Assembly (NCBI GenBank): GCA_040754335.1
Contig: JBFMCV010000005.1
Span: 124,001-188,000, forward strand
Source of the DNA: Thermodesulfobacteriota bacterium
GTDB taxonomy: Bacteria; Desulfobacterota_D; UBA1144; Nemesobacterales; UBA2774
Direction of reading: 5' to 3'
Length of the DNA: 64,000 nucleotides
Shown: one piece after another, positions 22,898 to 33,192 of the stretch
How positions within the stretch are numbered: the first letter of the stretch is position 1
Layout of the letters: every line of letters starts with the position of its first letter
Made by a program: the position numbers and the translations under genes
Notes under the pieces: generated by a model
What the model was told of the DNA's origin: nothing
What the model saw: the letters and a program-made list of their open reading frames with translations, nothing else
Database searches by the model: none

Positions 22898-23950
22898 TCA
22901 GCCTTTGAAGTAGGGGATGATGTCCTTTGCGTATGTCTTGAGCGCCTTTTCGGGGTCGGGGCTGAATCTGTAGAAAAGGACGAAGTGCCTTACGCCCTTG
23001 CTTATGTATTTCTCTATCTTTTTGATGCAGTCCTTCGCCGACCCGGTTATCGTGAAGTCGATTATAGCTTCCCTGGGGAAGAACTGGCCTATCTGCCTGA
23101 ACTTCTGCCTCCCGGCTTCGTCCTGCGGGATGACGTTGAAGTAGTTGAGGCCGTGGTATTCCTCGGGGATATTCACGTCGTATCCCGCTTTCTTTAGCTG
23201 GTCCTGCATGACGAGGACGTATTTGAAGGGCTCGAGCGTCTTGTATGCCTCGTCCTCGTTCTTGCCGAGTGAAGTGAACACCCAGAGCGCCGGGTCTATA
23301 TCTTTCATCTTGCGTCCGGCTTCCTTTGCGCTCTCCTTTATCACGCCCAGATATTCGGCGTAGAGCTTGGGGTTCAAGTCTATCGGGAGCCATCCGTCGC
23401 CTAATTCACCGACGAGCCTGAGTCCCTTGGGGGTGTGCGTCGCTATGTACATAGGTATGCGGTTCCTCTTGTAGGGCTTCACCTGCAAAAACGCGTCCTT
23501 AAGCTCGAAGAACTCACCCTTGTAATCGACAGGGCCGTCGGCAGCCCAGAGTTTCTGCATCACCTGCATAGATTCCCGGAGCCTCGTGAGGGGCTTGTTC
23601 CATTTGATGCCGTAAGCGTCCAGGTTCATTGACTCGCCCACGCCCAGAGTGAGGGTGACTCGACCCTTGGAGAGGTGGTCTATAGATGCCAATCTCTGAG
23701 CGAACACGGCGGGGTGCATCCTGTGGGGGTCGGAGACAGTGCCGAGGCTTATATTCTTCGTCATCATCGCGGCCGCGGTCGCAATCGTCCAGGCCTCGTG
23801 CGCTTCGGTGGGGGAGACGAAGACCACGTGGTCGGGATACCAGACGGTATCGAATCCGAGCTTGTCCGCCATTACTGAGAACTTGAGAAGCCCGTCCAGA
23901 TCGGCCCCAGGCATGGGGGCGGAGAGCCCGAACCTTATATCTTTAGCCAT
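22898..23950 (-). CDS. LLM-class (F420- or flavin-dependent) oxidoreductase, MER-like
   Basis: 350 residues starting at MAKDIRFGLSAP; a frame extension of 59 codons upstream is not family-like and a weak AGGTGC ribosome-binding site stands before this ATG. Luciferase-like TIM barrel: GFDTVWYPDHVVFVSP (about 33-48), RMHPAVFAQRLASIDHLSKGR and LTLGVGESMNLDAYG. The GE/GESMN motif after the fifth strand and the overall pattern are most like F420-dependent glucose-6-phosphate dehydrogenase and methylene-tetrahydromethanopterin reductase relatives. With npdG in the same window, F420 is the likely cofactor, but FMN cannot be excluded. Divergent from the next LLM gene. Confidence 0.88.
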   Translation of the reverse strand: MAKDIRFGLSAPMPGADLDGLLKFSVMADKLGFDTVWYPDHVVFVSPTEAHEAWTIATAAAMMTKNISLGTVSDPHRMHPAVFAQRLASIDHLSKGRVTLTLGVGESMNLDAYGIKWNKPLTRLRESMQVMQKLWAADGPVDYKGEFFELKDAFLQVKPYKRNRIPMYIATHTPKGLRLVGELGDGWLPIDLNPKLYAEYLGVIKESAKEAGRKMKDIDPALWVFTSLGKNEDEAYKTLEPFKYVLVMQDQLKKAGYDVNIPEEYHGLNYFNVIPQDEAGRQKFRQIGQFFPREAIIDFTITGSAKDCIKKIEKYISKGVRHFVLFYRFSPDPEKALKTYAKDIIPYFKG

Positions 23951-24127
23951 TTTTTTTTGCACCTCGCAGTGGATTGTAAAACTCATTATAAACCGAAGCG
24001 CGGGAAAAAAACAAGGCTTCGTTTGCACGAGCCGGAGCAAGCGGAAAATAAACGGGCCCGGGATGGATTTCGAAGAACGGCGGATGTTATAATAAGCCCG
24101 AAATATCCGGCTTGAGGAGGAAAGCAT

Positions 24128-25150
24128 ATGAAATTCGGCGTCGGGCTATTCGGGATGCAGACTCATCAGGAGCTTCCGTACACACACCCGCAGATATACA
24201 AGAACACGCTCGAGCAGGTAAAGCTCGCCGAGAAGGTGAATTTCGAATCCGCGTGGATATCCGAGCACCATTTTCTCGACGACGGGTACTGCCCTTCCCC
24301 CGCGGTGACGGCGGCGGCGATGGCGGCGGTCACGTCCAGGATAAGAATAGGCTCTGCGGGTATCATACTCCCCCTCCACAACCCGCTGAAGGTGGCGGAG
24401 GACGCGGCGGTGGTCGACAACATATCGGACGGGAGGTTCGACCTCGGCGTCGTGCTCGGATACAGGAAGGAGGAGTATGAGGGTATGGGGGTGCCCATGA
24501 AGCAAAGGCCCTCGCGAATGGACGAGGGGATAGAGGTGCTTGAGAAGGCGCTCACGGGGGAGAAATTCAGCTACGAGGGGAGGAGGTACAGGTTCGAGAA
24601 CGCGAAGCTCACGCCGAGGCCAGTGCAGAACCCGATTCCGTTATACGTAGGCGCTTTCGAGGAGCCCGCGATAAGAAGGGCTGGGAGGTTCGGATACCCG
24701 CTGCTCATAGGCCCCGGAAGGACAGTTGAAATGGTGAGGGACACGCTCGGGTTCTATAACGACGAGGCGAAGAAGCACGGAAGAGACCCGGATAGGGCTG
24801 AGCACATACTACTGAGAGAGACGTTCGTATCCCCCGGCCGGAGGAATGCGGTCGAAGGGGGGAACAAGTATATAATCAGCATGTATAAGTTCTACTTCTC
24901 GCTCGGCGTGAAGATGTTCGTCCGGGGGAAGCAGCTCACCGGGTTGGACGACCCGATGTTCAAGCACCTCGCCGAAGACAGGTTCATAATCGGGACGCCC
25001 GAAGACTGCGTCGAGGAGATAAGAAAGTACAGGGACGAGCTCGGGATCAGGTACATAGTCTGCCGGATGGTGTTCCCCCAGGCCCCGCACGAGGTCATTT
25101 CAGGGCTGATAAAGACGTTCGGGAGGAAGGTCATACCGAATGTCGGGTGA
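24128..25150 (+). CDS. LLM-class flavin-/F420-dependent oxidoreductase
   Basis: 340 residues of bacterial luciferase-like fold: ESAWISEHHFLDDGYCPSP (about 39-57), GSAGIILPLHNPLKVAEDAAVVD and LGVVLGYRKEEYEGMG. The EHHFLDDGYCPSP variant is shared with the gene at 52753, so the two are paralogues of one subfamily, distinct from the gene at 22898. GAGGAGGAAAG lies just before the ATG. It is divergently arranged with the LLM gene at 22898-23950; the 177-bp space between them must hold both promoters, but no clear -10/-35 pair stands out. Substrate unknown. Confidence 0.88.
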   Translation: MKFGVGLFGMQTHQELPYTHPQIYKNTLEQVKLAEKVNFESAWISEHHFLDDGYCPSPAVTAAAMAAVTSRIRIGSAGIILPLHNPLKVAEDAAVVDNISDGRFDLGVVLGYRKEEYEGMGVPMKQRPSRMDEGIEVLEKALTGEKFSYEGRRYRFENAKLTPRPVQNPIPLYVGAFEEPAIRRAGRFGYPLLIGPGRTVEMVRDTLGFYNDEAKKHGRDPDRAEHILLRETFVSPGRRNAVEGGNKYIISMYKFYFSLGVKMFVRGKQLTGLDDPMFKHLAEDRFIIGTPEDCVEEIRKYRDELGIRYIVCRMVFPQAPHEVISGLIKTFGRKVIPNVG

Positions 25151-25785
25151 GAAAAGGGGGAGCGCGATGTCCGCGTGTCATCCATTGCAGGTGTCAAGCA
25201 ATTCGGAGATAAAAGATGATGGAGAGGACAGCATTATATTTTGTGACAGCAATGTATCGTTGGCTGCCCTCATCTTTCTTAAAGACTTGGAATACATAAA
25301 GAAGGCAAAATATGTTTTTCTTCTTTTCCTCGATGAAAACACACATAGTGTGTCTTATGAGAAAGATCACGCACTTAGTGTTTAAAAGTACGAGTGAGAA
25401 TTGTGGCTGAACATACGCACTTCGATCCTTCGACTTCGCTCAGGACAGGCGCGCAATTAAGTATCGGCTCCATTGCTTGACTAAAACTGAGAAGCGACAG
25501 AGAGATCATATACGAGTGCAGGTTCTGCGCCTCAGTGCGAACGGGTTTAGTTGAGCAGAGTAGGAGATGAGGATCTCATGCCCGCGGGTGCTCACCCGCC
25601 GCCAATTCTGTAATGTCGGGAAAGATAAATCCCGCGCTATTACCTGTCACCCAGGAGAATTTTAACTCTCAATAATTTAACACTTACAATCCATGTCAGC
25701 ATTACGCTCAATCGACCGCACTTGAATTCTCATTGACGGATAGTTATGATGTTCATGAATTAAAGCTCTTTTGAAAATTTATAGG
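25151..25785. repeat. Repeat cluster D upstream of the cobalamin riboswitch
   Basis: About 630 bp with no credible gene. Elements: ACACACATAGTGTGTCTTATG (25337-25357; arms ACACA/TGTGT, same tail as at 9469), a GCACTTAGTGT relative (25371-25381), CCTTCGACTTCGCTCAGGACAGG (25427-25449), TACGAGTGCAGGTTCTGCGCCTCAGTGCGAACGGG near 25519-25554 (sister copy at 20942-20977) and GCGGGTG-CT-CACCCGC (25584-25599). The final 150 bp before the riboswitch are AT-rich and should contain the promoter of the B12 operon; no unambiguous hexamer pair is visible. Confidence 0.7.
25584..25599. repeat. GCGGGTG-CT-CACCCGC palindrome, copy 3
   Basis: Perfect 7-bp inverted repeat identical to 9759-9774, again preceded by a TGCC/CTGC context and followed by CGC. 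Its trailing sequence (CAATTCTG) differs from that of the two copies at 9.6-9.8 kb. Confidence 0.75.
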
Positions 25786-25949
25786 TATAAGGTGCTTTCA
25801 GCTTAAAAGGGAAGTCCGGTGTGAATCCGGCGCAGCCCGCTCGCTGCTGTGAGTAGTCCTTAAAGTCCCCCGCAAGATGCCACTGGAGCAATCGCTCCGG
25901 GAAGGCGCGGGAGAGTCCAGAGGCTACGAGCCAGAATATCTGCCTTATA
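25786..25949 (+). promoter_or_regulatory. Cobalamin (adenosylcobalamin-type) riboswitch
   Basis: Sequence and order match the B12 riboswitch: GGTGCTTTCAGC opening, AAAAGGGAAG, the core CCGGTGTGAATCCGGCGCAG, GCTGTGAG, GCCACTGG, CGGGAAGGCGCGGG, and a B12-box-like AGCCAGAATATCTGCC at the end. Closing stem P1 pairs TATAAGG (25786-25792) with CCTTATA (25943-25949). It precedes a TonB-dependent receptor and a complete B12 ABC uptake set, which is the standard regulatory target: B12 binding should lower expression. Confidence 0.93.
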
Positions 25950-25956
25950 ACTGTGA

Positions 25957-25987
25957 ATTTACTTTTCTTCGGGGGGAGAAAGTAAAT
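25957..25987 (+). promoter_or_regulatory. Hairpin after the riboswitch (expression platform candidate)
   Basis: ATTTACTTT (25957-25965) pairs perfectly with AAAGTAAAT (25979-25987); inner bases can extend the stem. There is no T-tract after it, so it is unlikely to be an intrinsic terminator. It may be the anti-sequestering or connecting element of the switch. Confidence 0.5.
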
Positions 25988-26007
25988 GGATTTGAAATCC
26001 AGTCTGC

Positions 26008-26036
26008 CTCCCGGCTGCCGCTCGGCTGACCGGGGG
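26008..26036 (+). promoter_or_regulatory. Probable Shine-Dalgarno-sequestering hairpin
   Basis: CTCCCGG (26008-26014) can pair with CCGGGGG (26030-26036), which contains the only G-rich Shine-Dalgarno candidate ahead of the receptor gene. This would allow translational control by the upstream cobalamin aptamer. Pairing was drawn by eye and includes one G-U pair. Confidence 0.5.
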
Positions 26037-26041
26037 TGCCA

Positions 26042-27922
26042 GTGATAAAAATTTTCTTATCGGCTCTTCTGTTAATCTTCTCCGTAACCGCATCGGCTCA
26101 GGAAGAGAAGGGGGAGACCCTCGAAGAGGTAGTCGTCGAGGACACTCCCATAGAGCCGCCACTCGATTACCCGTCGGCCTTTTCGACAGTAATAGACCTC
26201 GAAGACTTTCAGGGCGAGTACAGCACCGCTTCCGAAATCCTCTCATTCTCTCCGGGCGTCGTCGTACGCGATTACGGAGGGTTCGGACAGTTAAAGACAA
26301 TGTCCATCAGGGGCTCGTCTAACGACCAGGTTGTGATACTGCTAGACGGCGTGAGGCTCAACAGCCCTATCGGCGGCGGGGTGGACCTTTCCACGATACC
26401 CGTCAATTACGTGGACAGGTTCGAGATAATAAGGGGCGGGGCTTCGGCGCTGGCGGGGACGGACGCGATAGGGGGCGTGGTCAACATCGTTACGAAAAAA
26501 CCGGACAAGCCCTTCACGTTCGGCTCTGTCACGTACGGCTCCTACGAGACTTTCGGATTTAACGCGTCGAGAGCGCAGAAAATCGGAAACTTGAGCTACC
26601 TCGTCTCCTTCACGCACGCGCAGAGCAAGGGGGATTTCAAGTTCAAATCGGTGAACGACCTCATACTCACACGTATAAACAACGAGTTCCACTCCGAAAG
26701 CCTCCTCGTCAAAGGCGCTTACGATGCTGGGAACGGCTGGGAGATCGAGGCTCTCAACGAGTTCTTCTACGATGACAGGGGCGTCCCCGGGTTGGGAGAA
26801 TTCCAGCAGCCCGACGCGAATCAGAAAGATTTAAGAAACCTCACGAGCATAAACATATCCAAGGAGCAGTTCATAAGGCCCGACATGGACCTCGACGTGC
26901 TCATATTCAACAGGTTCGACGACCTCAAATTCAAAAACCCGGAGCCGACCGTCGGTCTTCCTATCGATACGCTCAGCAAAACGTATTCATTCGGCATAAA
27001 CCCTCAGCTCACGTGGTTCGCACCTTATAATCAAGTTTTTACGTTCGCGACGGAGCTCAGGGAAGACATCCTGGAAAGCAACGATTTCGGCGACCCCGAC
27101 AGGTTCACGTTCAGCCTGTTCGCGTCCGACGAAATAAACCTGTTAAATGACATGGTTGTTATCAATCCCATCATACGGTACGACCTCTGGAGCACGAGAC
27201 AGGAGGAGACGACGACGGATTCGGGCATCTCGGCCAGGCTCGGAGTGATAGTCACGCCGCTCGATTACCTGTCGTTCAAGGCGAACGCCGGACGCTCGTA
27301 CAGGGCCCCGAGCTTCGGCGAGCTATTCTTTCCGAACGAGGGGTTCATAAGGGGGAACCCCGACCTGAAGCCCGAGACCGCCTACGATTTCGACGTGGGC
27401 TTAATACTTTCGCACCCGCGCGGCGCGCTCGAGGTCACGTACTTCAGGAGCCACATAGACGACCTCATACTTTTCGTCTTCATAAGCGCGCAGACAATCG
27501 AGCCCCAGAACGTCGGTAACGTGGACGAGCAGGGTATAGAGACGAGCCTCGTGCTCAGGCCGTTTAAGTATTTCGAGCTCTTTGCGGGCTACACGTTCCT
27601 CGACGGAGAGATAAACGAGACGGGGGCGCAGCTCCCGGGAAGGCCCAGGAACAAGTTCGACCTAAGAGCGGTGCTCGACTTCAATTACCTCTCGCTCTTC
27701 TGGGAGACACACTACGTCGACAGGATACCTGTAAGCGCATTCCCCGATTCGAAGACGACCCCCGCCCGGACGACTTACGACATAGGCGCAAAAGCTGAGT
27801 GGAAGCAGTTCTTCGTCACGTTCGAGATAAAGAACCTTCTCAATAACCTCGACGTGAGGGACGCCCTCGACTTCCCTCTGCCGGGGAGGACATATTTCGC
27901 AACGGCGGGAGTGAATTTCTGA
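26042..27922 (+). CDS. btuB: TonB-dependent outer-membrane receptor, BtuB-like
   Basis: 626 residues from the GTG at 26042, whose GGGGG ribosome-binding site is 5 bases away; an in-frame GTG at 26036 is possible but lies inside that site. Signal peptide to about residue 18 (LSALLLIFSVTASAQ), then a TonB-box-like LEEVVVED, a plug domain (SFSPGVVVRDYGGFG, MSIRGSSNDQVVILLDGVRLN, IRGGASALAGTDAIGGVVNIVTKK) and a 22-strand barrel that ends in FATAGVNF with terminal Phe. Length and plug fit BtuB. The riboswitch and the downstream BtuFDC genes indicate that it imports cobalamin or a cobamide. Confidence 0.93.
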   Translation: MIKIFLSALLLIFSVTASAQEEKGETLEEVVVEDTPIEPPLDYPSAFSTVIDLEDFQGEYSTASEILSFSPGVVVRDYGGFGQLKTMSIRGSSNDQVVILLDGVRLNSPIGGGVDLSTIPVNYVDRFEIIRGGASALAGTDAIGGVVNIVTKKPDKPFTFGSVTYGSYETFGFNASRAQKIGNLSYLVSFTHAQSKGDFKFKSVNDLILTRINNEFHSESLLVKGAYDAGNGWEIEALNEFFYDDRGVPGLGEFQQPDANQKDLRNLTSINISKEQFIRPDMDLDVLIFNRFDDLKFKNPEPTVGLPIDTLSKTYSFGINPQLTWFAPYNQVFTFATELREDILESNDFGDPDRFTFSLFASDEINLLNDMVVINPIIRYDLWSTRQEETTTDSGISARLGVIVTPLDYLSFKANAGRSYRAPSFGELFFPNEGFIRGNPDLKPETAYDFDVGLILSHPRGALEVTYFRSHIDDLILFVFISAQTIEPQNVGNVDEQGIETSLVLRPFKYFELFAGYTFLDGEINETGAQLPGRPRNKFDLRAVLDFNYLSLFWETHYVDRIPVSAFPDSKTTPARTTYDIGAKAEWKQFFVTFEIKNLLNNLDVRDALDFPLPGRTYFATAGVNF

Positions 27923-27968
27923 ATGATTAAACAAGAAAAAAGAACCATCTTTACAGGAGGGATTTGAA

Positions 27969-29468
27969 ATGAAGACATTATTTTCAGTTCTACTTTTAGT
28001 TATGACCTGTCTTGTGATAACGGCGTGTGAGGAAACAAGCGGGGGCGGAGGGTTCGTTCCGACCGGCGCCATACTCGCGGTCGCCGAGAAACCGGGTGCC
28101 GAAGAGACTATAAAAGTCGGCGGGCTTCCGGGCGCAGTGCCTCCGGGGAGCCTGGTCGAGGTGACTAACCTCGATACGGACGAGACAGAGACAACGACCG
28201 GGAACCCGGACGGGAGCTTCGACCCTACTTTTACGGGTAGCACAGACGACGAGTTCAACGTGCTAGTGACCGACGAGGGCGAGGTCGTGGAAGATATCGT
28301 CATCGGCGTTACGCTGCTCTCGGAATCGGTCGAGGAAAACCTGGCCCCTCTGGGCAGCGTTCCCGCAGACATAGAGATAAGGGGCAACAGGGCATACGTC
28401 GTAAACGGGTTCTCGGACAATATCCAGGTATTCGATCTGAGCCAGGACCCGCCTGACCTGATAGGCACCATCGTTGTGCCGCCGGGGTCGAACCCGATAG
28501 ACATGGCGTTCGTCGACGATACTCACGCCTACGTTGCGAACAACATAGGGCAGAGCGTCGCGCGCGTCAACGTCAACACGCGTATCTGCGAGGTGCTGAT
28601 AGTGAAAGCGGGGCAGGGAGGAGCTACCGCGCCCTGCCAGAGCGTTATCACCGTCGCGGGAACGCCTTTCGAGGAGCCTGTCGGGGTAGCTGTGACCAAC
28701 GGAAGGGTGTACGTCACCAACAATAACCTCGACGAGAATTTCAATCCGATGGGAAACGGATTCATCTCCGTCCTGAACTCTACGAACAGCCAGTTCATTA
28801 CTACGATCCCGGCCTCGGGCGTAAACACGACGAGCATGGCCGTCATTGGAAACACGATCTATGCCATGAATAACGGGGCCGTGCTTTTCGATCCCGATAC
28901 CAATGAATTTACGTGCGATTTCGATTTCCAGCCCTCGATCGATCTCATCAACTCGCAGACGAACGTTCTGTTCGATAATATCGCCATACCGCTCAGCCCC
29001 GAGAATCCGACCGTCTGTCTCCCGAACCCGCTCGTCGCGACTCCCGACGGGAGGTTCGGCTATACGGGACTGGGACTCGTAGGCGCGCTGCTGAAAGTGG
29101 ACCTGATTTCAGGGGATGTTGTCAACGGCACGGACGACCCTATCGTTATTACAGACCTCGATTCACTCAACCTCACGGCTGACATTGCCATAAGGGACGA
29201 TCTTCTCTTCACGACGCTTTTTCTTACCGACCAGATAGCGGTAGTCGATACAGACACCGACGAAGTGAACCCGTTCCCGTACATAGCGCCGTTCCCCGCG
29301 GGCATAAGGGCGTTCGACCCCGGCTCGAACTTCTTCGACGGGGTGCAGTCGCTCGCGATAAGGCCCGGGACGCCGGGCGTGAACTTTTCGGGGCCCGATA
29401 TTTTCTTCATCACCGGCATAAGCGAGCAGCTGGGCTCTGTCGACTCGACCCTGGGCTTGCTCGAGTAA
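27969..29468 (+). CDS. Beta-propeller lipoprotein of the B12 operon (BtuG-like candidate)
   Basis: 499 residues. Lipoprotein signal with ITAC (Cys20), then a GGGG linker and a short domain to about residue 115, then repeated propeller blades of YncE type: ADIEIRGNRAYVVNGFSDNI, DMAFVDDTHAYVANNIGQSV, GVAVTNGRVYVTNNNLDE, SMAVIGNTIYAMNNG, VATPDGRFGYTG and ADIAIRDDLLFTTLFLTDQI. In Bacteroides, BtuG is a surface propeller lipoprotein that caps BtuB and binds B12 extremely tightly. This protein has the same fold class, anchor and position between btuB and btuF, but homology to BtuG is inferred, not shown. AGGAGGGA precedes the ATG. Four Cys residues beyond the anchor may form disulfides. Confidence 0.85.
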   Translation: MKTLFSVLLLVMTCLVITACEETSGGGGFVPTGAILAVAEKPGAEETIKVGGLPGAVPPGSLVEVTNLDTDETETTTGNPDGSFDPTFTGSTDDEFNVLVTDEGEVVEDIVIGVTLLSESVEENLAPLGSVPADIEIRGNRAYVVNGFSDNIQVFDLSQDPPDLIGTIVVPPGSNPIDMAFVDDTHAYVANNIGQSVARVNVNTRICEVLIVKAGQGGATAPCQSVITVAGTPFEEPVGVAVTNGRVYVTNNNLDENFNPMGNGFISVLNSTNSQFITTIPASGVNTTSMAVIGNTIYAMNNGAVLFDPDTNEFTCDFDFQPSIDLINSQTNVLFDNIAIPLSPENPTVCLPNPLVATPDGRFGYTGLGLVGALLKVDLISGDVVNGTDDPIVITDLDSLNLTADIAIRDDLLFTTLFLTDQIAVVDTDTDEVNPFPYIAPFPAGIRAFDPGSNFFDGVQSLAIRPGTPGVNFSGPDIFFITGISEQLGSVDSTLGLLE

Positions 29469-29565
29469 AGGCGTTTGCATATACGGAGAAAGCGGTAATG
29501 ATAATCTGCCGGGGGAGGGGACGTGAAGTCCTCTCCCCGAAACCGTACGAGGGAGGCGTAGACAA

Positions 29566-30513
29566 ATGCGCATATGCTCATTCCTTCCGAGCACGACCGA
29601 GATACTTTACGGGCTCGGCCTGGGCGAGAGCGTGACGGGCGTGACTCACGAATGCGATTATCCGCCCGAAGCGAGGGAGAAGAAGAGGGTCATATTGAGC
29701 TTTATAGACCCCGGGAAACTGTCGAGCCGCGAAATAGACGAGCTCGTGAGCCGGAACGCCGCACAGGGAAAAAGCACGTACCTCATAGACAGGGACGCCC
29801 TCAGGGAAGCCGACCCCGACCTCATACTGACGCAGGAGCTATGCCAGGTGTGCGCAGTATCGGGGAACGAGGTTACGGAGGCGGTGGAGGCGCTCGGGAG
29901 GAATCCGGAGATCATCTCGCTCGAGCCGAGGACGCTCGGCGAGATAATGGATACCATACTCGTCATAGGCGAAGCGACGGGTACGGGGGAAAGGGCGCGC
30001 GAGGTCACGGAAAAGCTCACGCAGAGGATAGAGAGGGTGAAGTCGCTCACGGGAGACGTAAGGGACCGCCCCAGGATCTTCTGCCTCGAATGGCTCGACC
30101 CGCCCTACGCCGCGGGACACTGGGTGCCGGAAATGGTCGAGATCGCCGGCGGACAACCCGGCATCGTCAAAGCTGGAGAGCCGTCTTTCAGGGTCACGTG
30201 GAAGGATATAGCGGACTTCGCCCCCCAGATGCTTTTCATAATGCCGTGCGGATACGACATAGAAAAAACCATGGGCGAGATCGAAACACTCACGACACAC
30301 GACGAGTGGTTTTCTCTCCCTTCGACGGGCAAGGGGGAGATCTACGTATTCGACGCGAACTCCTATTTCAGCAGGCCGGGGCCGAGAGTCGTCGACGGGC
30401 TCGAGATAATGGCGAAGACCATACACCCCGAGCTCATGAAAGGCTACGAGCCTCCGCCGGATTCGGTCGTCAACCTGAGGAACTACATGCAGTTCGAATT
30501 ATTCCTGGGATAG
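29566..30513 (+). CDS. BtuF-like cobalamin-binding protein without signal peptide
   Basis: 315 residues of the helical-backbone metal-receptor fold (BtuF/FecB family): ICSFLPSTTEILYGLGLGESVTGVTHECDYP at the start and DLILTQELCQVCAV with a CxxC pair (Cys93, Cys96). The first residue is already within the first strand of the fold and there is no hydrophobic leader, so the protein should stay in the cytoplasm. This HECDYP/LCxVC subfamily is commonly leaderless. It may receive imported cobamide or act with an adenosyltransferase; that is a guess. The 97 bp gap from the propeller gene contains GGGAGG before the ATG. Confidence 0.88.
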   Translation: MRICSFLPSTTEILYGLGLGESVTGVTHECDYPPEAREKKRVILSFIDPGKLSSREIDELVSRNAAQGKSTYLIDRDALREADPDLILTQELCQVCAVSGNEVTEAVEALGRNPEIISLEPRTLGEIMDTILVIGEATGTGERAREVTEKLTQRIERVKSLTGDVRDRPRIFCLEWLDPPYAAGHWVPEMVEIAGGQPGIVKAGEPSFRVTWKDIADFAPQMLFIMPCGYDIEKTMGEIETLTTHDEWFSLPSTGKGEIYVFDANSYFSRPGPRVVDGLEIMAKTIHPELMKGYEPPPDSVVNLRNYMQFELFLG

Positions 30514-30515
30514 AA

Positions 30516-31397
30516 ATGATCAAGAAAATTTTATTAAGATTTATCATACCCGCGGTACTGGCAGCATCGTTTCAGAGCGCCCATTCAGGCGAGGGGCCCG
30601 AGCGCATAGTCTCACTCTCGCCTAACCTGACGCACATCATATACGCTCTCGGGGAGCTCGACAGGGTGGTAGGCGTGACGCTTTACTCGGACTTCCCCCC
30701 TCAAGCAAGTGAGCTGCCCAATGTCGGGGGCTGGATAAACCCTAATTACGAGGCGATATTGGCGCTCAGGCCCGACCTCGTCATACTCATGAAGGACCAG
30801 GACACAATATTCGGGGCGAAGCTGAGGGAGCTCGGCTTGAAAACCCTCGTCACGGACAGCAACGATTCGGTCAGCGATATAATGAAAACTATCTTATACC
30901 TCGGTGATGTATTGGGCAAGGAGGCGGAAGCTCGAAAAATCGTCTCGGATATGGAATCGGCGCTTGATAAAATCGGGCGGAGGACGGAGGGGGCGCCGAA
31001 GAAGAAGGTGCTCCTCGTCGTCGGGAGGAACCCGGGGACGCTCGAGGACATCTACGTCATAGGAAGGAACAACTATATAAACGAGCTTATAGGGATAGCC
31101 GGAGGGGTGAACGCGGTAGAGAACACGAGGCTCTCGATAAAAATAACGAAAGAGGCGATTCTCACGCTCGACCCCGACGTCATCATCGAGATAAACCACG
31201 AGAAGCTCGACAAAGAGAAAGAAATCCTCGGCACATGGAGCACGCTCAGCCAGTCGAGGGCGGTGAAGGACGGGGAGGTCTATATACTGCCGAGCACCGT
31301 GGTACTGCATCCGAGCCAGACGATCGTAGAGGGCACCCAAGTGCTTACGGAAGTGCTCCACCCGGAGCTCAAGGATACGTATGGAACCGGTAATTGA
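30516..31397 (+). CDS. btuF: Periplasmic cobalamin-binding protein
   Basis: 293 residues from the ATG at 30516, two bases after the stop of the preceding gene. It has a normal Sec signal peptide (KKILLRFIIPAVLAASFQSAHSGE) and the BtuF fold: ERIVSLSPNLTHIIYALGELDRVVGVT, LPNVGGWINPNYEAILALRPDLVI, DSNDSVSDIMKTILYLG and an IIEINHEK C-lobe strand. It delivers substrate to the BtuC2D2 importer encoded next. Its last 17 bases overlap the start of btuD, so translation is coupled. Confidence 0.92.
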   Translation: MIKKILLRFIIPAVLAASFQSAHSGEGPERIVSLSPNLTHIIYALGELDRVVGVTLYSDFPPQASELPNVGGWINPNYEAILALRPDLVILMKDQDTIFGAKLRELGLKTLVTDSNDSVSDIMKTILYLGDVLGKEAEARKIVSDMESALDKIGRRTEGAPKKKVLLVVGRNPGTLEDIYVIGRNNYINELIGIAGGVNAVENTRLSIKITKEAILTLDPDVIIEINHEKLDKEKEILGTWSTLSQSRAVKDGEVYILPSTVVLHPSQTIVEGTQVLTEVLHPELKDTYGTGN

Positions 31398-32154
31398 GTG
31401 CAGCCGTGTCTCCTTCTCGTACGGATCGGGAGAGATACTGAGAGATATTAACCTCCGTTTCGCGGGGGGAAAGATGCTCGGCGTACTGGGCGCGAACGGG
31501 GCGGGCAAATCTACTCTGCTTAAAATACTCACAGGCATACTCAGGGCGCAAACGGGGAGCGTTCTGTTCAACGGCAAACCCCTCCCTGGCTACGACAGGA
31601 GGGAGATCGCAAAGCGAATAGCCTACATCCCGCAGGACCCTGTTTTCGCGTTCCCGTTCACGGTCTCGGAAGTGATACTCATGGGCAGGGCGCCTTACAT
31701 AGGCAGGTTCGAATTCGAAAGGGAGATGGACCTCGAAGCGGCGGAGAGGGCGATGGATACGGTCGGAATCTCTCATCTAAGGGACAGGCTCATCACGGAG
31801 ACGTCCTCGGGGGAAAGGCAGCTCTCGTCCATAGCGAGGGCGCTCGTGCAGGAGCCCCGGGTGATGATACTCGACGAGCCCGCGACGTTTCTCGACATAA
31901 GGCACAGGAACGAGATCATGAGCCTCCTCCGGAAGCTCAAGGAAGAGCGCGGGATACTGATCATCGCGGCAACGCACGACATATTCACTGCGCTCTTTTA
32001 TTTCGACGAGATAATAATGATCAAGAACGGGAGCGTATTCGCGGAGGGCCCCGTAGACGCCGTGATAAACAGGGAGAACCTGAGCTCGCTCTACGGTATA
32101 GACGTCACTGTCAGGAAGGAAGGCGGAAAGGTCTTCATATACCCCGGAGATTGA
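31381..32154 (+). CDS. btuD: Cobalamin ABC transporter ATP-binding protein
   Basis: 257 residues, FecE/BtuD type. Walker A GANGAGKST is at about 38-46, the Q-loop in YIPQDP near 85, a signature loop reading SSGERQL instead of the usual LSGGE, Walker B VMILDEPATFLD and the switch His in AATHDIF. Pairs with the FecCD permease encoded next. The ATG is inside the last codons of btuF. Confidence 0.95.
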   Translation: MEPVIECSRVSFSYGSGEILRDINLRFAGGKMLGVLGANGAGKSTLLKILTGILRAQTGSVLFNGKPLPGYDRREIAKRIAYIPQDPVFAFPFTVSEVILMGRAPYIGRFEFEREMDLEAAERAMDTVGISHLRDRLITETSSGERQLSSIARALVQEPRVMILDEPATFLDIRHRNEIMSLLRKLKEERGILIIAATHDIFTALFYFDEIIMIKNGSVFAEGPVDAVINRENLSSLYGIDVTVRKEGGKVFIYPGD

Positions 32155-32184
32155 TCGGGGGAGAAACAATCAGGCTCACTAACG

Positions 32185-33192
32185 GTGAATATGGCCGCAA
32201 AGAAAAAATTCATTATCGCGCTAAGCCTCTTGCTCCTTCTCTGGGTCGTCACGGCAGCCGTGAGCGTGCTGTCGGGAACTTACGAGAAGAGCATCATCGG
32301 CGCGCTATTCAGCGGAGACGAGCTCGCGGGCACGATCTTTTACAAGATAAGGATACCGAGGGTGCTGATGGCGACAGTAGCCGGAGGAACGCTCGCGATA
32401 TGCGGCGCCGCGCTACAGGCCCTCTTCAGGAACCCCCTCGCTTCGCCCTTCACGCTCGGCATATCGGGCGGAGCCTCCCTTGGAGCGCTCATAGGGATAA
32501 GGCTGGGACTCGCTGCCGGCATTCTGGGTTTTTCCATGGTTACTGTCCTTGCGTTCCTCTTTTCGCTCCTGACAATGCTGTTCGTTTACTCGGTCTCCAA
32601 GGTGGGAGGGGTGGTAGCCACGGGACGCCTGCTGCTCGCGGGAGTCGTAATGAATTTCCTCTACTCGGCATTCGTCCTGTTCATACAGTTCTTTTCCAAC
32701 TTCACGGAGTCGCTCCAGACAATGAGGTGGATAATGGGCAGCCTCGACGTGGTGGGGTTCGACGAGGTATGGAAGACGCTCGTATTCGTGATGCCGGGAT
32801 GCGCGATACTGCTGTCGATAACGAAGGACATGAACCTCTTCGGCCTGGGGGACGACGTCGCGTCTTCGCTCGGTGTGAACGTAAAGAAATTGCAGAACCT
32901 TATCTATTTCGCGACTTCGCTTTCGGCCGGGGCCGTAATATCCGTGACGGGACCGATAGGCTTCGTAGGACTGGTGATTCCTCACATACTGAGAATGATC
33001 CTCGGGGTGGACAACAGGATCATACTCCCCTGCTCGTTCCTCCTCGGAGCGTCTTTCCTGACGGCCGCGGATACGGTCTCGAGGACTCTTATATCACCGG
33101 TCGAGATACCGGTGGGAATAATTACAGCCTCTCTTGGCGGCGTATTCTTTCTCTGGCTGCTTATAAAGTCAAAGAAAGAGGTTATCGTTTAG
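32185..33192 (+). CDS. btuC: Cobalamin ABC transporter permease (FecCD family)
   Basis: 335 residues with about ten membrane segments. FecCD landmarks: YKIRIPRVLMATVAGGTLAICGAALQALFRNPLASPFTLGISGGASLGAL, and later GDDVASSLGVN, FVGLVIPHILRMILG and PVEIPVGIITASLGGVFFLWLL. Start GTG followed by AAT ATG; the two possible starts differ by two codons. 30 bp after btuD. Last gene of the B12 locus; no terminator hairpin is evident behind it. Confidence 0.95.
   Translation: MNMAAKKKFIIALSLLLLLWVVTAAVSVLSGTYEKSIIGALFSGDELAGTIFYKIRIPRVLMATVAGGTLAICGAALQALFRNPLASPFTLGISGGASLGALIGIRLGLAAGILGFSMVTVLAFLFSLLTMLFVYSVSKVGGVVATGRLLLAGVVMNFLYSAFVLFIQFFSNFTESLQTMRWIMGSLDVVGFDEVWKTLVFVMPGCAILLSITKDMNLFGLGDDVASSLGVNVKKLQNLIYFATSLSAGAVISVTGPIGFVGLVIPHILRMILGVDNRIILPCSFLLGASFLTAADTVSRTLISPVEIPVGIITASLGGVFFLWLLIKSKKEVIV

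Follow-up and report, generated by a model that had tools for sequence, protein, structure and literature searches.

A cobalamin riboswitch operon in the 64,000-nucleotide window analysed here, part of contig JBFMCV010000005.1 from a 3.26-Mb Candidatus Dadabacteria genome assembly, encodes a beta-propeller lipoprotein (27969-29468) immediately behind a BtuB-like TonB-dependent receptor (26042-27922). Given the riboswitch operon, the lipobox, a structural model combining an Ig-like domain with a propeller, and a strict pairing with one btuB clade, we consider it fairly likely that this protein is a cell-surface lid working with the receptor of the same operon. The closest named relatives belong to Candidatus Dadabacteria metagenome-assembled genomes (83% identity at L049, for example). 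In our judgement the protein is a BtuG-like lid from beyond the Bacteroidota and falls short of BtuG strictly defined.

How might such a lid promote corrinoid uptake? We propose that low B12 relieves the riboswitch and allows the operon to be expressed. The strongly acidic propeller, tethered by its lipid, a linker and an Ig-like stalk, would then capture corrinoids outside the cell and hand them over to the BtuB-like barrel, and TonB-driven passage, followed by BtuF and then BtuCD, would complete the import. The organism is a likely corrinoid scavenger, because CbiF/CobM has no match over cut-off in the source genome and the same genome holds five B12-binding domains, a single missing enzyme family being a weak test of auxotrophy. 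Within the phylum, CbiF exceeds its cut-off only in G019 and G023 (family f5), and both are devoid of riboswitch, btuB match and propeller; synthesis and uptake thus look mutually exclusive.

Architecture of the propeller and its pairing with a receptor

The lipoprotein comprises 499 residues, with a lipobox of ITA followed by the lipid-bearing C20, a cysteine that is invariant in the family alignment of 19 sequences. An AlphaFold2 model built with 24 natural sequences in the input (mean predicted local distance difference test, pLDDT, 90.6; predicted template modelling score, pTM, 0.88) places a beta-rich domain at mature residues ~16-97 and a propeller from residue ~98 onward. The propeller contains ~28 strands, which we read as seven four-stranded blades, the number that BtuG has; the count is taken from the strand list and not from coordinates. 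The propeller fold proposed in the preliminary description is thus borne out, and the best Foldseek matches of the model are likewise propellers; what that description had overlooked is the additional N-terminal domain. We call this domain Ig-like because its counterparts in relatives weakly match CarboxypepD_reg and Big_6 in Pfam. The mature chain begins with CEETSGGGG, so that a glycine-rich linker precedes the Ig-like domain. Another lipoprotein of the source genome (L203, 16131-17114) begins with CDDGGGGG and seemingly has a similar beta domain after its linker; lipoproteins of this genome may commonly combine a glycine linker with an Ig-like stalk.

Four propeller cysteines (207, 223, 316 and 350) are invariant in 19/19 aligned sequences and may well form disulfides among themselves. 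The net charge of the mature protein is -53, compared with -19 for BtuG2 (most of the chain) and mostly -4 to -27 for generic YVTN propellers of the phylum. Bacteroides BtuG2 draws B12 by an acidic face (PMC10404256), and the charge of the window protein is therefore consistent with B12 binding, although it is no proof of it. Starting from the single sequence, all Pfam matches fall below cut-off (YNCE at 16.2 bits, NHL, Lactonase) and phmmer returns no match in the PDB; because such searches are weak or empty, profiles alone are informative for this protein.

The receptor (626 amino acids, GTG start) contains Plug and TonB_dep_Rec domains according to Pfam. Its best NCBIfam model is the B12 receptor TIGR01779, at 183.7 bits against an equivalog cut-off of 599.7. 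The BtuB assignment is based on context and on similarity in the PDB, where E. coli BtuB is closest (1e-27) and Bacteroides BtuB ranks lower (8bmx_C, 3.5e-20).

Across the Dadabacteria phylum, sampled as one genome per species, 24 of 58 genomes contain the propeller. Where the contig extends far enough, its position is immediately behind a single btuB clade (clade A, at least 52% identical to the btuB of the window). A cobalamin riboswitch precedes btuB in every examined relative with a sufficiently long contig, the order riboswitch-btuB-propeller is without exception, and btuF2 follows the propeller in the examined loci, in one case (L042) after a 3-kb gap. Two genomes (G002, G030) have a clade A btuB without a propeller, the btuB being cut by the contig end, and in five others (G001, G005, G015, G017, G025) a full btuB match is missing and the propeller borders a contig end. 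Propeller-less genomes either have another TonB receptor (23-28% identical) after the riboswitch or give no riboswitch match. In family f8, whose genomes are small, such a different receptor occupies the same slot ahead of btuF2, a ~150-amino-acid protein and a FabH-like gene. In view of this receptor-specific presence and absence, receptor and propeller seem to be gained or lost as a unit. As judged from gene neighbourhoods, their co-occurrence is the strongest argument within the phylum for a propeller that serves the receptor.

Relatives in other phyla and kinship with BtuG

When 84,980 species, each represented by one genome, were scanned with a pattern-based search, five relatives outside Dadabacteria emerged (L068-L072): two from Neomarinimicrobiota together with one close match (L068-L070), one from Zixibacteria (L071) and one from Ignavibacteriae (L072). 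All five are located immediately behind a btuB-like gene, and L071 and L072 are also accompanied by a cobalamin riboswitch. With every Dadabacteria copy and all five outside relatives either adjoining a btuB-like gene or cut by a contig end, homologues are not widespread away from B12 genes, and the propeller does lie outside Bacteroidota; on both points the interpretation in the preliminary description, which holds in part, is supported.

We then surveyed 296 genomes from the phylum to which L072 belongs, inferred to be Bacteroidota. The family profile found matches in 40 of them, and 20 of the best places were examined, taken almost by rank with one place in G307 skipped. Sixteen of the 20 lie near a cobalamin riboswitch, 15 of these also with a btuB-like receptor. 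As a control, a profile of ordinary Dadabacteria YVTN propellers was run on the same genomes; it had matches in 166 genomes, and a cobalamin riboswitch was present at 0 of the 18 top places examined. Control stretches were ~8 kb long and family-profile stretches 14 kb, a difference that should not explain the outcome, because in B12 loci the switch is situated within ~3 kb of the propeller. At one of the inferred Bacteroidota loci (L170, 5631-8074), a cobalamin riboswitch is followed by a tandem pair of propellers, and no btuB-like gene was detected within that stretch.

Against the whole PDB, BtuG chains rank first for the family profile (8ptf/8ptd at 3.6e-8, 8blw at 3.6e-7), and E. coli YncE and 1L0Q are not among the matches up to E 5, whereas with the control profile BtuG comes after 1L0Q, hydrazine synthase and YncE. 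Searches with the family profile hence show a preference for BtuG over generic YVTN propellers, both in PDB ranking and in the loci retrieved. Consistently, hhalign aligns the family to B12-locus propellers at 1.6e-31 and to generic propellers at 1.1e-15. In a reciprocal search, most genomes that have the propeller return it as their top match or close to the top (8.7e-23 in the source genome, with the next gene at 4.3e-16). These two comparisons are not independent, because the alignment of B12-locus propellers (A3) had been collected with the family's own profile. Taken together, the family would work in the manner of BtuG, to which, as judged by its profiles, it is probably related, though very remotely.

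Several observations pull in the other direction. Fold alone gives no preference, since Foldseek retrieves BtuG and YncE alike; fold likeness was rejected as evidence for BtuG, as YncE and designed propellers score equally well. A hidden Markov model (HMM) of B. theta BtuG1 (a fragment), BtuG2 and BtuG3 scores generic Dadabacteria propellers as high as this family, the generic decoys having been chosen for high scores; it fails to separate the two groups and was discarded as a discriminator. A tree does separate the Dadabacteria family, on a long branch, from B12-locus propellers of other phyla and from generic propellers, with no firm support for the branching order (81/24 with the cleaner set; a first tree from noisier rows, at 91/92, is not relied on). 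Of the pocket residues named for BtuG2 (Trp194, Tyr239, Trp272, Tyr316 and Tyr335; PMC10404256), Trp194, Trp272, Tyr316 and Tyr335 are not conserved in the family, the alignment being uncertain at such depth, and Tyr239 is replaced by Phe in most members. The other B12-locus relatives likewise mostly fail to conserve this pocket, except for an aromatic residue at 239. Finally, DUF5074 (PF16819) has no match in the window propeller up to E 1 and weak matches in 4 of 19 family members; in the source genome its match is to a different gene of YVTN type, over two stretches of a 382-amino-acid frame. Because of the HMM result, the tree and the pocket residues, we refrain from calling the protein BtuG. 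Of the two options initially offered, an independent or a distantly related BtuG-type protein, profile specificity leans towards distant relationship, to which these same three lines of evidence lend no support.

Might an ordinary Dadabacteria YVTN propeller have been separately adopted as a B12 lid? This alternative concerns ancestry only, its mechanism being that of the lid proposed above, and we regard it as rather unlikely. It would account for a tree in which Dadabacteria propellers, B12-locus propellers of the Fibrobacterota-Chlorobiota-Bacteroidota (FCB) group and generic propellers have no firm order, for the equal HMM scores of generic propellers, for the divergent pocket and for the extra Ig-like domain. 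It does not readily explain why the family profile retrieves BtuG-type loci (16/20 versus 0/18) and puts BtuG chains first in the PDB, nor why the motif N(S/D)NIQ(V/I)FD...NPxx(M/I)xF is common to the Dadabacteria family and to its cousins at btuB loci elsewhere (L068-L072). A corollary, to which we assign only a low probability, is that the lid arose independently of BtuG from a YVTN propeller and an Ig-like stalk, that lidded receptors have more than one origin, and that a lidded or unlidded outer-membrane module has been swapped at one locus within the phylum.

Cellular location and alternative roles

In E. coli, Asp at position +2 of a lipoprotein leads to retention in the inner membrane. 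An acidic residue follows the lipid cysteine in 15 of the 19 family members, including the window protein (CEETS), and in 4 of ~17 credible lipoproteins sampled from part of the source genome. If an E. coli-like rule applied, Asp or Glu at +2 could mean inner-membrane retention, which counts against a surface lid, although the rule of this host may differ. The acidic residues might also be read as resembling the lipoprotein export signal of Bacteroidetes. Instead of a lid, the protein might then be a periplasm-facing relay that passes corrinoids from BtuB to BtuF, an arrangement that would also fit the presence of propeller and btuF in the same operon. We consider such a relay improbable. In L071, L170 and L179, B12-locus propellers that lack an evident lipobox, the chain terminates in a sorting domain for type IX secretion (Pfam 44.1, 40.8 and 31.7 bits; NCBIfam TIGR04183 above cut-off), which implies surface export there and favours, by inference, a surface location in Dadabacteria; known BtuG is exposed on the cell surface as well (PMC6143338). 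Moreover, the propeller tracks the type of outer-membrane receptor, being absent with the other receptor although btuF2 stays, and it is present at loci where no btuF, btuD or btuC was detected nearby.

That the propeller aids the receptor in some other way (assembly, gating or a non-B12 ligand) or is a bystander gene seems improbable: generic YVTN propellers are indeed common in Dadabacteria genomes, but in several of the phylum's families the pairing with one btuB clade is strict, and btuB-propeller pairs recur in other phyla.

The operon and its comparison with known systems

All features of the operon are on the forward strand, and their order (aptamer, BtuB-like receptor, lipobox propeller, two BtuF-fold proteins, BtuD and BtuC) is confirmed as previously described. 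The aptamer matches Rfam RF00174 over its full length (111.6 bits, E 4e-27) at 25773-25961; its start had been placed slightly late, at 25786. Downstream of the propeller gene, btuF2 (29566-30513) encodes a BtuF-fold Peripla_BP_2 protein (Pfam E 4e-15) that lacks a signal peptide as annotated and carries the motif ELCQVC. It is followed by btuF (30516-31397), for a periplasmic corrinoid-binding protein with a signal peptide (Peripla_BP_2, E 3.4e-38), by the ATP-binding cassette (ABC) ATPase gene btuD (31381-32154; ABC_tran, E 7.5e-33, one of the best models being that of a corrinoid ABC ATPase) and by the permease gene btuC (32185-33192; FecCD, E 7.4e-84, two BtuC models being best in NCBIfam, below cut-off). 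btuF2 may not be a partner of BtuCD, because it is kept in relatives in which the same search detected no btuF, btuD or btuC nearby (L042, L043 and the small-genome loci L115-L120).

The gap between the propeller gene and btuF2 (29469-29565) contains a strong hairpin at 29511-29538 (stem GGGGAGGGGAC/GTCCTCTCCCC; folding z -4.1). Hairpins of varied sequence occur in this gap in 6 of 7 relatives tested, L036 having none; through them, the outer-membrane pair and the remaining genes may be kept at unequal mRNA levels. Some order-mates, in family f4, place a separate cobalamin riboswitch ahead of the genes for the inner-membrane part (L044, 7771-7961; L121; L124); in L121 and L124 it stands before btuF-btuD-btuC, the inner-membrane part being separately switched. 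Upstream of the operon, two genes for luciferase-like monooxygenases occupy 22898-25150. In most relatives the riboswitch is directly preceded by the second of them (24128-25150), and comparable genes also border the different receptor seen in L111-L114.

According to Wexler et al., BtuG is exclusive to Bacteroidetes, as assessed by BlastP at 1e-10 in 313 gut genomes (PMC6143338), and among the listed open-licence papers that mention BtuG, none was found, from title, abstract or selected passages, to report it outside Bacteroidetes. The locus logic of B12 switch, BtuB and propeller in Dadabacteria, which recurs, in some cases without the switch, in Neomarinimicrobiota, Zixibacteria and Ignavibacteriae, suggests that B12-catching lids occur much more widely than the literature records. 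If so, lidded B12 receptors would be a general answer to corrinoid scarcity, and related species with and without a lid at the same locus offer a natural test. Divergent proteins of this family are also candidate corrinoid-binding reagents; BtuG2 from B. theta already serves to strip corrinoids from soil extract (PMC11287211).

The Dadabacteria propeller shares its fold with E. coli YncE (7seu, TMt 0.79) and the archaeal YVTN surface-layer propeller 1L0Q. A further parallel is the Bacteroides XusAB iron-piracy system, whose surface lipoprotein is presumably XusB. There, too, a surface lipoprotein partners a TonB receptor, and the substrate differs, being siderophore iron (PMC13142918). The btuB-linked propellers L068-L072 and, from the inferred Bacteroidota, most of L168-L187 resemble the Dadabacteria family in adjoining btuB-like genes, most of them with a cobalamin riboswitch; they differ in having no Ig-like domain, and L071, L170 and L179 have the type IX tail and are not lipoproteins. 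BtuG1, BtuG2 and BtuG3 of Bacteroides thetaiotaomicron (PDB 3DSM, 8BMX, 8OKV, 8P97 and 8BLW; PMC6143338 and PMC10404256) share with the Dadabacteria protein the lipoprotein propeller beside btuB, the cobalamin riboswitch, the acidic character and the acidic residues soon after the lipid cysteine. Unlike BtuG, the Dadabacteria family is without the conserved BtuG2 pocket and without a DUF5074 match over the Pfam cut-off; it adds an Ig-like N-terminal domain, the four invariant propeller cysteines and a last-blade loop PFPYIxPFPAGIRA...FDGVQ, all in a different phylum.

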